From positions 1-61,024 of the forward strand of contig JAAYSV010000049.1 in NCBI GenBank assembly GCA_012518215.1: a DNA stretch of 61,024 nt, written 5' to 3'. A program made the translations under genes and the position numbers. Below, one piece after another: positions 16,012-21,814 of the stretch; positions within the stretch are counted from its first letter, which is position 1, and each line of letters opens with the position of its first letter. Source of the stretch: Bacillota bacterium. Lineage in GTDB: Bacteria; Bacillota; Dethiobacteria; DTU022; PWGO01. The notes under the pieces are model-generated. The model did not search any database and was not told where the DNA came from. It was given only the letters and a program-made list of their open reading frames with translations.

Positions 16012-17991
16012 TCATCCATTAGAAAAACCGAACAACTTGTCCACTAGGGGAAAATCATCGATCAGGTCCACGATATAGCGCAGGATCAGAATTGCATCCT
16101 GGACATTGACACCATCTTGCAGATTGACGTCGCCAAACACTTCCTGTTCCGCTGTGAATGATATCAATCCCACGATACCCCTCAATACAACAATGGCATC
16201 CTGCACATCGATTTCATCATTGCCATCAAGATCTCCATAGGGCATGTAGATAACGATTACCCCTTGATCTTCCAGGGAGGAAATAACCCACCTTGCCTTT
16301 TCGCCCGGGGCAAGATTTAGATCTTTGTTGTATCTCAGGTCAACTCCTCTCAGGGCAACAAGACCCCCGAGGCCCGAGATGTCCGTGATTTTATTTTCTT
16401 TCAGGAAAAGATAATATAAATACTTCAATCCCGAAAGCCCTTCGATCCTGGTGATCTGATTCCGACCCAGGTTCAGTTCTTCAAGGTTGGCCAGCTTGTC
16501 AAGCCCCTCGATCTTGGTGATCTGATTCCGACCCAGGTTCAGCTCTTCAAGGTTGGCCAGCTTGTCAAGCCCCTCGATCTTGCTGATCTGATTCCTGGCC
16601 AGGTCCAGATCTTTGAGGTTGGCCAGCTTGTCAAGCCCTTCGATCCTGGTGATCCGATTCTGACCCAGGTTCAGCTCTTCAAGGTTGGCCAGCTTGTCAA
16701 GCCCTTCGATCCTGGTGATCCTGTTACCGGTCAGGTAGAGTGAATAAAGACAACCCAGCTTATCAAGCCCCTCGATCTTGCTGATCTGATTCCTGGCCAG
16801 GTCCAGATCTTTGAGGTTGGCCAGCTTGTCAAGCCCCTCGATCTTGCCGATCTGATTCCAATCCAGGCTCAGGTATCCAAGGTTGGCCAGCTTGTCAAGC
16901 CCCTCGATCCTGGTGATCCTGTTACCGGTCATGTAGAGTGAATAAAGATAACCCAGCTTGTCAAGCCCCTCGATCTTGCCGATCTGATTCCAATCCAGGC
17001 TCAGGTATCCAAGGTTGGCCAGCTTGTCAAGCCCCTCGATCCTGGTGATCCGATTCCTGGCCAGGTCCAGATCTTTGAGGTTGACCAGTGTGTCAAGCCC
17101 CTCGATCCTGCCGATCTGATTCCAATCCAGGCTCAGGCCTTTGAGGTTGACCAGTTTGTCAAGCCCCTCGATCCTGGTGATCCGATTCCTGCCCAGGTCC
17201 AGACCTTCAAGGTTGACCAGTTTGTCAAGCCCTTCGATTTTGCTGATCCCGTTACTGCCCAGGACAAGCCATTCCAGCTCGGTCATGCCCGAAAGTCCCT
17301 CGATCTTGAGAATCTTGTTGTTGTTAATGGATAGGAACAACATTTTGGTCATCTTTTTCAGAGGTGCCATATCGCCGATCATGTTGTTTTCAAGGTGTAA
17401 CTTTTCCATTTTGACCATGTTTTGCAGAGGCGCTATATCTTCGATCAGGTTATTTCCAAGGCGAAGGTATTTCATATCGGTCAGTTTGGCAAGAGCCGAA
17501 ATGTCTGTAACCATATTTCCCGACAGAAGCAGTTCGTGTAATTTGCTCATATTGCGGAGTGAAGTGATGACACTGATCCTGTTTTCAGAAAGTACGAGCC
17601 GTTCCAGGTTGACAAGCTTGTTGAGTGGTGAAATGTCACTGATACGGTTATAACCCAGGAAAAGCCACTCCAGGTTGGTAAGGTTGGCAAGGGGAGAGAG
17701 ATCGCTGATAAGGTTGTGAGACAGATTGAGCGACTTCAACCCGGTCGCATGTTGGAGGCCGGTCAAATCAGCTATCTCCCCATTCGCTAAATTCAAATTG
17801 GTCAATGACTCCATATCCCCAACAGTTATGGGGTCGTTCTGCTTGTTTATCTTAACCCGGATCAACGCTTCCAGTTGCGGGTCCGGTATGTGAACCTCAG
17901 TTGCAAGGGCCACATTGCCGCTCCCGGAAAGCATGGTAAATAGAAATACAGCCAGGCAACAAGACAGAACCTTCAAACTTGTTTTGACCAT
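16012..17991 (-). CDS. Secreted leucine-rich-repeat protein with C-terminal dockerin
   Basis: A 659-residue secreted protein. A signal peptide (VLSCCLAVFLFTMLSGSGNVALA, cleavage near residue 30) is followed by about 22 internalin-like LRR units of 22 residues: eight diverged ones (65-229), then fourteen very regular units starting IEGLDKL (230-537). The C-terminus holds a type I dockerin: two calcium-loop repeats, GDLDGNDEIDVQDA (586-599) and GDVNLQDGVNVQDA (620-633), each followed by a hydrophobic helix. Dockerins bind cohesins; a cohesin protein is at 27122. An adhesive or scaffold-bound role outside the cell is likely, but the partner is unknown. Start: ATG with GGGA upstream. Confidence 0.92.
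   Translation of the reverse strand: MVKTSLKVLSCCLAVFLFTMLSGSGNVALATEVHIPDPQLEALIRVKINKQNDPITVGDMESLTNLNLANGEIADLTGLQHATGLKSLNLSHNLISDLSPLANLTNLEWLFLGYNRISDISPLNKLVNLERLVLSENRISVITSLRNMSKLHELLLSGNMVTDISALAKLTDMKYLRLGNNLIEDIAPLQNMVKMEKLHLENNMIGDMAPLKKMTKMLFLSINNNKILKIEGLSGMTELEWLVLGSNGISKIEGLDKLVNLEGLDLGRNRITRIEGLDKLVNLKGLSLDWNQIGRIEGLDTLVNLKDLDLARNRITRIEGLDKLANLGYLSLDWNQIGKIEGLDKLGYLYSLYMTGNRITRIEGLDKLANLGYLSLDWNQIGKIEGLDKLANLKDLDLARNQISKIEGLDKLGCLYSLYLTGNRITRIEGLDKLANLEELNLGQNRITRIEGLDKLANLKDLDLARNQISKIEGLDKLANLEELNLGRNQITKIEGLDKLANLEELNLGRNQITRIEGLSGLKYLYYLFLKENKITDISGLGGLVALRGVDLRYNKDLNLAPGEKARWVISSLEDQGVIVIYMPYGDLDGNDEIDVQDAIVVLRGIVGLISFTAEQEVFGDVNLQDGVNVQDAILILRYIVDLIDDFPLVDKLFGFSNG
16381..17304 (-). 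repeat. 14 tandem 66-bp LRR repeats
   Basis: Codons 230-537 of the LRR gene are 14 in-register 66-bp units. Several are nearly identical in DNA. Higher-order copies occur: the unit pair with LSLDWNQIGK followed by LGYLYSLYMTGNRITR recurs, and the LKDLDLARNQISK unit appears twice with the same neighbours. The low synonymous divergence implies recent duplication or gene conversion. Confidence 0.95.
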
Positions 17992-19341: not shown

Positions 19342-19872
19342 CTATTCCGGCAACATCCTGTCCGCTCTTTCCTTCCATTCTTTCAGTGACGTATCTCCCC
19401 ACCCCACTTTTTTATCAACGATCCGGCCCTCGGTGTCGATGAAAAAACCGGTGGGAAACCCCTGGATTCCAAAAGATGTGGCGATGCTGTAATTCGCATC
19501 CGATAAAACTGTTATATCCAGGCCGTTTTTCTCCCAGAACTTCCTGACCTGTTGATCCCTGTCGCCGGCTACGGTTATCACAACAAGACCACGTGATTCA
19601 TATTCTTCAATCAAAGGCTGCAACTGCAGCATCTTCTGACGGCAGGGTGTTCATGTGGTCATGAAGAAATTGAGATAAATATTTTTCCCGCTCCATTCGC
19701 CGGGGAAATTGACCGTCTCTCCCGTCATGACATTCCTGGTACTGAAGATGTTTCCTTCCGCAGTCATGCTGACAGGATCGTCCCCGGTAGAAGATGTTGT
19801 ACAGGATGCCATGTTAAACATTGCCAGGATCATGATGGACACCAGCAGAATGATCCATCTGTTTCTCGACAT
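19342..19872 (-). CDS. TlpA-like thioredoxin-fold lipoprotein, probable selenoprotein (UGA = Sec74)
   Basis: One 176-residue reading frame if the in-frame TGA at 19651-19653 is read as selenocysteine. The N-terminus is a lipoprotein signal (IILLVSIMILAMFNMAS then C24). A TlpA/ResA fold follows: NIYLNFFMTT, then U74-T-P-C77, then RQKMLQLQPL, LVVITVAGDR, and the cis-proline loop GIQGFPTGFFID. The TGA falls exactly where the first Cys of the WCxPC-type motif belongs. Both halves are intact and in frame, so a simple pseudogene is less likely. A candidate SECIS hairpin follows (19613-19636). The start overlaps the NapH-like gene by 59 nt with AAGGAAGG upstream. Probable role: extracytoplasmic thiol/peroxide reduction fed by that protein. 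Ordinary callers would split it in two. Confidence 0.85.
19613..19636 (-). promoter_or_regulatory. Candidate bacterial SECIS element
   Basis: Starting 14 nt after the UGA on the minus strand: GAAG, bulged AU, GCUGC, apical loop AGUU, GCAGC, CUUU. The bulged U on the 5' side and a GU in the apical loop match the features SelB needs in the E. coli fdhF SECIS; the loop is about seven bases further from the UGA than in E. coli, within the range seen in other bacteria. Confidence 0.6.
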
Positions 19873-20725
19873 CGTTATTCCTTCCTTTCAACATTGTTTT
19901 ATTGCTTTGAGGGGCTGCTCCAAAAGTGATCGCTCCCGTAGGGCAGATTTGCATGCAGGATAGGCAGCGGATACACTCGGTTGAATTCAACTGTCCGGGA
20001 AGATCAAGTTCCATCGGGCATACCCGGCGACAACGGTCACAGGAAATACATTTTTCCGTATGATGATGGATTCTGAACAATGCCAGGCGATTGAAGAGGC
20101 CGTAAAAAGCACCAAGCGGACACATTGTTCGGCAAAATGGCCTGTCGATCACTGTCGAGGCACCCAGGATAAAAACCAGCATCCCTGCTTTCAAATAGAA
20201 GATTGTCCCGACCATGTTCCACAGCTCGGGGGCTGCCAGCAGAAGTGGTATCCCGGCCGCAAGAGTACCCTCGGGACAGATATATTTGCAGAAGTAAGGT
20301 GCGCCGAAACCGTCACTGTCAACCCAAAGTATCGGCAGCAGCAGCAACAGGATCAGTAGCAGATACTTGAAAAGGGTAAGCGGATACGGAACGTGCAACT
20401 TCCTCCTTCCGATCTTCCCTATCAGTTCCTGAATCAGGCCGAATGGGCAGAGCCAACCGCAGAACCAGCGGCCTGCCAGCCCCCCGGCTGCCAGCAGAAA
20501 GCCAAAGATGTACATCGGAAATTTGTGATGAGGGGCTGCAACCATACCCTGCAACGCTCCCAGGGGGCACGAACCGGCCGCTGCCGGGCATGAATAGCAA
20601 TTCAGAACAGGAACACAGGCTCCTTTAAGCTGTCCCTGATAAATACGCCCCCGGTAAAAGTTGCCCGGAAAGGGATTGGCAACAAAAAAAGCAATGATTT
20701 GTGCTATTTTTCTTCTGAAGTTCAT
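19814..20725 (-). CDS. NapH/YccM-like membrane polyferredoxin
   Basis: A 303-residue membrane protein with about five hydrophobic segments and NapH-type CxxxCP motifs on the membrane part (WFCGWLCPFG, YFCKYICPEG, PFCRTMCPLG). Two classical [4Fe-4S] sites follow near the C-terminus (CISCDRCRRVCP and CIRCLSCMQICP). An additional NCYSCPAAAGSCPLGA lies after the first segment. Such proteins pass electrons between quinones or ferredoxin and a partner across the membrane. It lies 14 nt after the CXXC peptide gene and overlaps the selenoprotein gene, so the three form an operon. No nap or nos genes are near. The last 30 residues are polar and overlap the next gene's ribosome site. Confidence 0.88.
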   Translation of the reverse strand: MNFRRKIAQIIAFFVANPFPGNFYRGRIYQGQLKGACVPVLNCYSCPAAAGSCPLGALQGMVAAPHHKFPMYIFGFLLAAGGLAGRWFCGWLCPFGLIQELIGKIGRRKLHVPYPLTLFKYLLLILLLLLPILWVDSDGFGAPYFCKYICPEGTLAAGIPLLLAAPELWNMVGTIFYLKAGMLVFILGASTVIDRPFCRTMCPLGAFYGLFNRLALFRIHHHTEKCISCDRCRRVCPMELDLPGQLNSTECIRCLSCMQICPTGAITFGAAPQSNKTMLKGRNNDVEKQMDHSAGVHHDPGNV

Positions 20726-20965: not shown

Positions 20966-21814
20966 TCATCCCTTGTTGTCGGCAATATGCATGTCCATAC
21001 TTCCCGATCTGAATCCCTCCAGATCCAGTGTAACATAATCAAAACCGAGATCCTTCAATTTACTGACCAATTCTTTCCGTTTCTCCAGCAGCCCGGGAAT
21101 CTCCGTCTGCCCGATCTCGATACGGGCCAGTTTCCCGTGCGACCGTACTCTCAAGGTGCCTGCAATGCCCATTTTTCGCAAAACCTGCTCCGCTGCGGCC
21201 ACACGCATGAGCTTTTCGCGATCCAGTTTCTCACCGTAGGGGAAACGGGTTGCCAAACAGGTAGTCGTCGGCTTATTCCAGGTAACAAGGCCATATTTCC
21301 GTGAAAGATAACGTATCTCTTCCTTGGTCAACCGTGCTTCCTTCAGTGGACTTTCCACTCCGGTTTCCGCTGTTGCTTTCAAACCGGGGCGATATTCTTC
21401 CTCATCCTCCGTTATGGTACCGTCCATGACTGTTTTGCTTCCATATTTTCTTGCCAGAGCAACCATTTTCTCATACAATTCTTTCTTGCAATAGTAACAT
21501 CTTTGTGGTGGATTTGCATGAATTTTTTCCAGTCCCAGTTCATCGGTTTCAACTATGATATGCCTTACCTTCAGATTTCCCGCTATCAGACGGGACTGTT
21601 CCATCTCTTCTGATGGGCGGAGAATCGAGGCAGCGGTTACGGCAATCACGTTCTCATTTCCGAGCAGACGCACCGCCTTGAAGAGGAGAAAACTGCTATC
21701 TACACCGCCGGAAAAAGCTATCAGTGCACTACCGGTAGAAAGCAAAATCTGGTTCAATCGGGCTTCCTTGCGTGCTGCCAGTTGTACATCTATTACCGTA
21801 TCATCCGTCCTCAT
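20966..21814 (-). CDS. larE: ATP-dependent sacrificial sulfur transferase LarE
   Basis: A 282-residue PP-loop ATPase: AFSGGVDSSFL is the pyrophosphate loop, CYYCKKELYEKM and NKPTTTCLATRFPYGE are typical of LarE, which gives sulfur to the nickel-pincer cofactor of lactate racemase and related enzymes. No larB, larC or larA is nearby. PTTTC holds the cysteine that serves as sulfur donor in Lactobacillus LarE; other LarE proteins carry a [4Fe-4S] cluster on three cysteines instead. It is the first gene of a same-strand run with the CXXC peptide 88 nt downstream. Confidence 0.9.
   Translation of the reverse strand: MRTDDTVIDVQLAARKEARLNQILLSTGSALIAFSGGVDSSFLLFKAVRLLGNENVIAVTAASILRPSEEMEQSRLIAGNLKVRHIIVETDELGLEKIHANPPQRCYYCKKELYEKMVALARKYGSKTVMDGTITEDEEEYRPGLKATAETGVESPLKEARLTKEEIRYLSRKYGLVTWNKPTTTCLATRFPYGEKLDREKLMRVAAAEQVLRKMGIAGTLRVRSHGKLARIEIGQTEIPGLLEKRKELVSKLKDLGFDYVTLDLEGFRSGSMDMHIADNKG

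Follow-up and report, generated by a model that had tools for sequence, protein, structure and literature searches.

ResA is a maturation reductase that keeps apocytochrome c reduced, and CcdA is the membrane partner of the Etrx lipoproteins; to our knowledge, the bacterial routes that deliver reducing power to extracytoplasmic thioredoxins are thiol relays (CcdA, DsbD, and ScsB). Thioredoxin-fold selenoproteins with a UxxC motif are already known as a kind. In the part of its text that was available, a survey of 2006 includes, for Syntrophomonas wolfei, a 'distant Prx-like thiol:disulfide oxidoreductase' (PMC1794560), and the available parts of two reviews (2022 and 2026) list Prx-like, Redoxin, and TlpA-like selenocysteine (Sec) families (PMC9312934, PMC13188914). 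As described in these parts of the three sources, the UxxC 'Prx-like' and 'Redoxin family' proteins are, like the family reported here, predicted thioredoxin-fold selenoproteins, and the S. wolfei protein of the 2006 survey, compared by name and motif, probably belongs to this family. The lipid anchor, the NapH-like partner, and the frozen hairpin described below are absent from the same parts of the three sources (PMC1794560, PMC9312934, PMC13188914).

The locus analysed here lies in the window, by which we mean the whole stretch of 61,024 nt that was analysed, and has the following features (positions are those of the window).

19342..19872, minus strand: gene for the predicted ResA/TlpA-like lipoprotein with Sec (176 aa when translated with TGA as U; start codon ATG at 19872, stop codon 19344..19342)
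19880..19885, minus strand: Shine-Dalgarno-like GGAAGG just upstream of the Sec gene, from the sequence
19801..19803, minus strand: Cys24, putative lipidation site of the lipobox MASC, from the sequence (a lipobox-like N-terminus was found in 18 of 20 members read by eye)
19651..19653, minus strand: TGA codon for the predicted Sec74, first position of UTPC (the same codon is TGA in 35/35 Sec-family genes)
19642..19644, minus strand: codon of Cys77, putative resolving Cys of UxxC, invariant in the family alignment
19617..19630, minus strand: predicted SECIS apical hairpin GCUGC-AGUU-GCAGC, encoding part of LQLQP (frozen codons; pairing in all 35)
19453..19455, minus strand: Pro140, the cis-Pro position, invariant in the family alignment (the cis bond itself not seen)
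19814..20725, minus strand: gene for a NapH-like membrane protein carrying two 4Fe-4S motifs of the ferredoxin type (Pfam Fer4_5/Fer4); it precedes the Sec gene and overlaps its start by 59 nt

The single in-frame TGA of the Sec gene is codon 74, in the context NFFMTT-U-TPC-RQKMLQLQP (translation of the minus strand, 19872..19342), and a signal peptide with a lipobox was found in the sequence at the N-terminus. The earlier note on this DNA, which gave no strand, had described two in-frame halves of one protein split by a TGA at the first position of CxxC, with a lipobox before it and a cis-Pro after it; this is true of the minus strand, with U74 and C77 numbered in the 176-aa frame, and both the lipobox (MASC, C24) and the invariant Pro140 were found. 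The lipidated TlpA/ResA-like fold that it had proposed is borne out by the lipobox, by the AlphaFold2 model (pLDDT 85), in which Sec lies directly before the helix 75-92, and by the PDB matches of the model, in which ResA structures rank at the top and Etrx lipoproteins are also close fold matches. The window protein thus has the thioredoxin fold, the motif at the N-terminus of a helix, the cis-Pro position, and the export signal of the ResA/TlpA type. From the comparisons given below, we regard U74 of the lipoprotein as almost certainly selenocysteine.

Homologues were collected by a family search in 60 relatives, which gave three homologues with one TGA each, and by profile searches of the phylum and classes, which added many. 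The resulting Sec set consisted of 35 distinct loci (window included), drawn from several classes of the phylum and from many of its families, with 24-40% identity of family members to the window protein; the carriers include Syntrophomonadaceae bacterium B1Sed10_75 (G002) and Bacillota bacterium AS09scLD_241 (G032). The signal peptide was absent in one member (L012), and the lipobox was poor in another (L011). The tree comprised 94 redoxins and had rows for 34 of the 35 Sec loci (the 35th, L144, which has the same TGA and a variant of the hairpin, was not a separate row), and these 34 formed one clade together with a single Cys member (L111:1483-1986, genome G409) with support of 100/99. The Cys member was nested, with support of 100/97, among the Sec members of the family to which it belongs. 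As to whether homologues carry U or Cys at this site, a check that the earlier note had put forward, the codon was TGA in the 35 loci and Cys in one, and the motif was CxxC in the ResA relatives. From its position in the tree, the Cys of L111 is best read as a reversal in which Cys took the place of Sec. A lost Sec machinery was rejected as the cause, and the reversal was thus not forced in this way, because genome G409 retains SelB. By these sequence data, the group is a phylum-wide family of predicted surface thioredoxins of anaerobic bacteria, nearly all of which have Sec. Note that the Sec rows L026-L031 fell outside the clade in the tree and were left out of the counts. L026-L030 (genomes G038, G046, G012, G028, and G020) form a second Sec redoxin family of the same order, with the motif RGFVUP(F/Y)C; L026 scored 64.9 bits against SelL_rel_redox (cut-off, 120), and a GC-AGTT-GC or similar loop was found downstream of the TGA in this second family (e.g., L026, L027, and L030). 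Another locus, L045 (JAGUZX010000042.1, genome G030), is labelled Desulfovibrio sp. yet falls in the order of the window, and the genome is probably a mislabelled MAG.

The hairpin core starts 20 nt downstream of the TGA in the window; in the predicted fold, the outer pairs begin at a distance of approximately 14 nt from the TGA, and the core is preceded by an A-U bulge, which agrees with a hairpin with a bulged U and a GU loop about 14 nt downstream, as had been proposed from the letters. The core, GCTGCAGTTGCAGC, was found once in the 61-kb window when both strands were searched, and GCTGCAGTTGCAGCC or a close variant was present at a constant distance after the TGA in 35/35 Sec loci, the 14-nt core being identical in 29 of them. 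The folding energy of the window hairpin alone was not significant (z = -1.43) and does not in itself prove a SECIS; therefore, the freezing of codons was compared among the loci. Leu84 was encoded by TTG in all 33 rows with Leu at this position (the other two rows had GTG, Val), and TTG made up 14% of the Leu codons elsewhere in these genes. Likewise, Gln83 was CAG in 35/35 and Gln85 in 34/35, with CAG at 63% elsewhere. The codons beside the hairpin were free: Cys77 was TGC in 20 loci and TGT in 15, and Pro86 used all four codons. The five stem pairs were intact in every Sec sequence, with three U-G changes and one compensatory U-A pair (L137), and the RNAalifold consensus was exactly this five-pair stem. 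Covariation was weak (one of the five pairs; 66 of 500 shuffles gave a value as high), and the case for an RNA signal rests mainly on the codon freezing because the hairpin varies too little for covariation. In L139 and L144, the loop was changed from AGTT to AGGT and the protein from LQLQP to LQVQP, a change that the RNA signal apparently imposed. In the Cys member, LIALRD replaced LQLQP, and the hairpin was lost too. Because the codons are frozen, the variants keep the stem, and the Cys member has LIALRD, the constraint acts on the RNA and the peptide follows from it; LQLQP is nearly invariant because the hairpin dictates it. We interpret the hairpin after the TGA as a bacterial SECIS that is written into the protein.

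The Sec family resembles ResA, StoA, and Etrx in the thioredoxin fold, the signal or lipid anchor, and the cis-Pro, and C74/C77 of ResA correspond to U74/C77 of the Sec protein; it differs from them in having Sec for the first Cys and a NapH-like protein, not CcdA, next door. The nearest NCBIfam models to the window protein were ResA (NF002854; 74.3 bits, cut-off 170) and StoA (NF041202; 52.9 bits, cut-off 210), and its scores were far below both cut-offs. The NCBIfam Sec redoxins WAxxUGC_long, SelL_rel_redox, TUGYCR, and SaoT, which resemble the family as Sec-containing or Sec-related thioredoxin-fold proteins, were rejected, since the matches were far below the cut-offs and SaoT (NF040730) gave none, either for the window protein (E <= 0.001) or for six other family members (E <= 1). 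Neither the window protein nor any of the six further members tested, which include the Cys member, was covered by an NCBIfam model; thus, such genes are likely annotated as two broken halves.

The gene neighbourhoods were counted in loci with flanks of about 1.5 kb, in which NapH-like proteins and CcdA were recognised by motif, and the counts are therefore approximate. Of the 35 clade rows (Cys reversal L111 included), 29 had a NapH-like gene next door, and CcdA was adjacent in none of the 35 within the same flanks and by the same recognition, whereas among the Cys-type TlpA/ResA relatives CcdA was adjacent in 25/53 and a NapH-like gene in 0/53. Three of the six clade loci in which no NapH-like gene was seen (L107, L109, and L143) are short at contig ends. 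The gene order varied (NapH-TlpA or TlpA-NapH), and no third conserved neighbour was common to the four larger loci. The NapH-like neighbour named by the earlier note was therefore confirmed, by the Pfam matches (Fer4_5/Fer4) and by the adjacency; that this protein feeds the lipoprotein, as the same note had it, is still inferred, with the contrast between CcdA beside Cys-type and NapH-like beside Sec proteins in its favour. As for the other genes of the window, a LarE sulfur transferase gene (20966..21814, minus strand) lies upstream of the NapH-like gene, and 16012..17991 (minus strand) encodes a leucine-rich-repeat protein with internalin-like repeats (NCBIfam matches far below the cut-off) and an apparent dockerin-type tail.

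Like NapH/MauN, the NapH-like protein has membrane CxxxCP motifs and, after them, two 4Fe-4S ferredoxin motifs, but the protein of the window fits the profile only from residue 83 and has an additional N-terminal CX5CX2CX6C and, in total, three CxxxC pairs. Its score against NCBIfam NapH (TIGR02163) was 72.6 bits, far below the cut-off of 213. Eighteen Cys were shared without exception by the 30 NapH-like proteins of the alignment; eight of these Cys lie within the two ferredoxin motifs, and the other ten form CX5CX2CX6C and the three CxxxC pairs. Hydropathy and charge weakly suggest an outward-facing position for the N-terminal Cys group and for one CxxxC pair; the AlphaFold2 model of this protein was unusable (pLDDT 38).

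On these data, the following mechanism is proposed. SelB would bind the hairpin and bring Sec-tRNA to the UGA, as extrapolated from established Sec biology. The product would be a lipid-anchored extracytoplasmic oxidoreductase of the ResA/StoA/Etrx type, in which U74 attacks and Cys77 resolves, and which may reduce a target disulfide or an oxidant outside the cell, with formation of the selenenylsulfide U74-C77. The NapH-like protein may then re-reduce U74-C77, a step suggested by the gene neighbourhood, and would pass electrons from the cytoplasm or the quinol pool through its Fe-S clusters and extracytoplasmic cysteines; that electrons would pass in this direction, into the Sec lipoprotein, is deduced from the adjacency of the genes. 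The NapH-like protein would thereby stand in for CcdA, the thiol-based partner beside the Cys-type relatives. The full mechanism, a Sec reductase recharged by a NapH-like protein that replaces CcdA, seems to us somewhat favoured, and we give even weight for and against the more specific proposal of a two-gene transmembrane relay in which an Fe-S NapH-like protein recharges a surface selenol thioredoxin as an alternative to CcdA/DsbD.

Alternatively, the Sec lipoprotein may act upstream of the NapH-like protein and keep its extra Cys reduced for the building of Fe-S clusters. The two-gene pairing is compatible with such a role, as are the 18 invariant Cys of the 30 NapH-like proteins, ten of which are outside the ferredoxin motifs, and the closest solved fold is that of ResA, a maturation reductase; however, the reductase would be left without a recharging partner nearby, since CcdA is in no clade locus (it may be encoded elsewhere), and we consider this role unlikely. 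We judge slightly less probable than the maturation role a further possibility, in which the protein would work outside the cytoplasm as a peroxidase or peroxiredoxin and destroy peroxides by means of Sec. The Pfam matches to Redoxin (1.5e-21) and AhpC-TSA (2e-17) point in this direction, and the probable relative in the 2006 survey was named 'distant Prx-like' in the text available (PMC1794560); against this, Sec occupies the N-terminal residue of UxxC, a position of the thioredoxin type, whereas the known Sec peroxiredoxins have TxxU in the available part of the 2026 review (PMC13188914), and the best sequence and fold matches of the Sec family are ResA/StoA and not peroxiredoxins. Membership in the peroxiredoxins was rejected on the grounds of the motif (UxxC, not TxxC/TxxU) and the ResA-like fold. 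The literature library that was searched yielded no report of a pairing of NapH with a Sec thioredoxin.

The assignment of U74 as Sec was further compared with the content of the genome. The four genes selA, selB, selC, and selD, for which a search had been suggested, were all present in the window genome: selD, selB, and selA are adjacent on one contig (C8:177000-181301; 365, 403, and 589 bits, respectively), and tRNA-Sec was found at C8:188570-188661 (73 bits). The selD of this genome (G000:C8:177000-177920) has one in-frame TGA, as it does in the other eight genomes compared, and SelB was present in 22/22 genomes tested, most of which carry the TGA gene. An in-frame TGA by itself does not discriminate Sec from a genome-wide reading of TGA as another amino acid (e.g., Trp), but TGA is an ordinary stop in the window, where it ends 20 of the 44 frames with an open length of at least 220 codons (shadow frames included), the Sec machinery is complete, and the hairpin accompanies the TGA and is gone in the Cys member, so that the probability of such recoding is negligible. 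Equally negligible is a pseudogene or a sequencing error from TGC or TGT, for which the draft state of the genome (61 contigs) and the single base between TGC and TGA might speak, because independent genomes share TGA at the same codon, with the downstream halves intact in 35 loci of different genomes and the codons of the hairpin frozen.

As for the reading that we prefer, in which the NapH-like protein recharges the Sec lipoprotein, a surface protein that is almost always a Sec protein, next to which there is usually an Fe-S membrane protein and in no case CcdA, points to a reducing route different from the thiol relays. The hairpin is also a clear example of protein sequence dictated by an RNA signal, in which LQLQP is kept with Sec and lost with Sec. 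If the relay is true, it would link the use of selenium with Fe-S electron transfer in the extracytoplasmic redox control of strict anaerobes.
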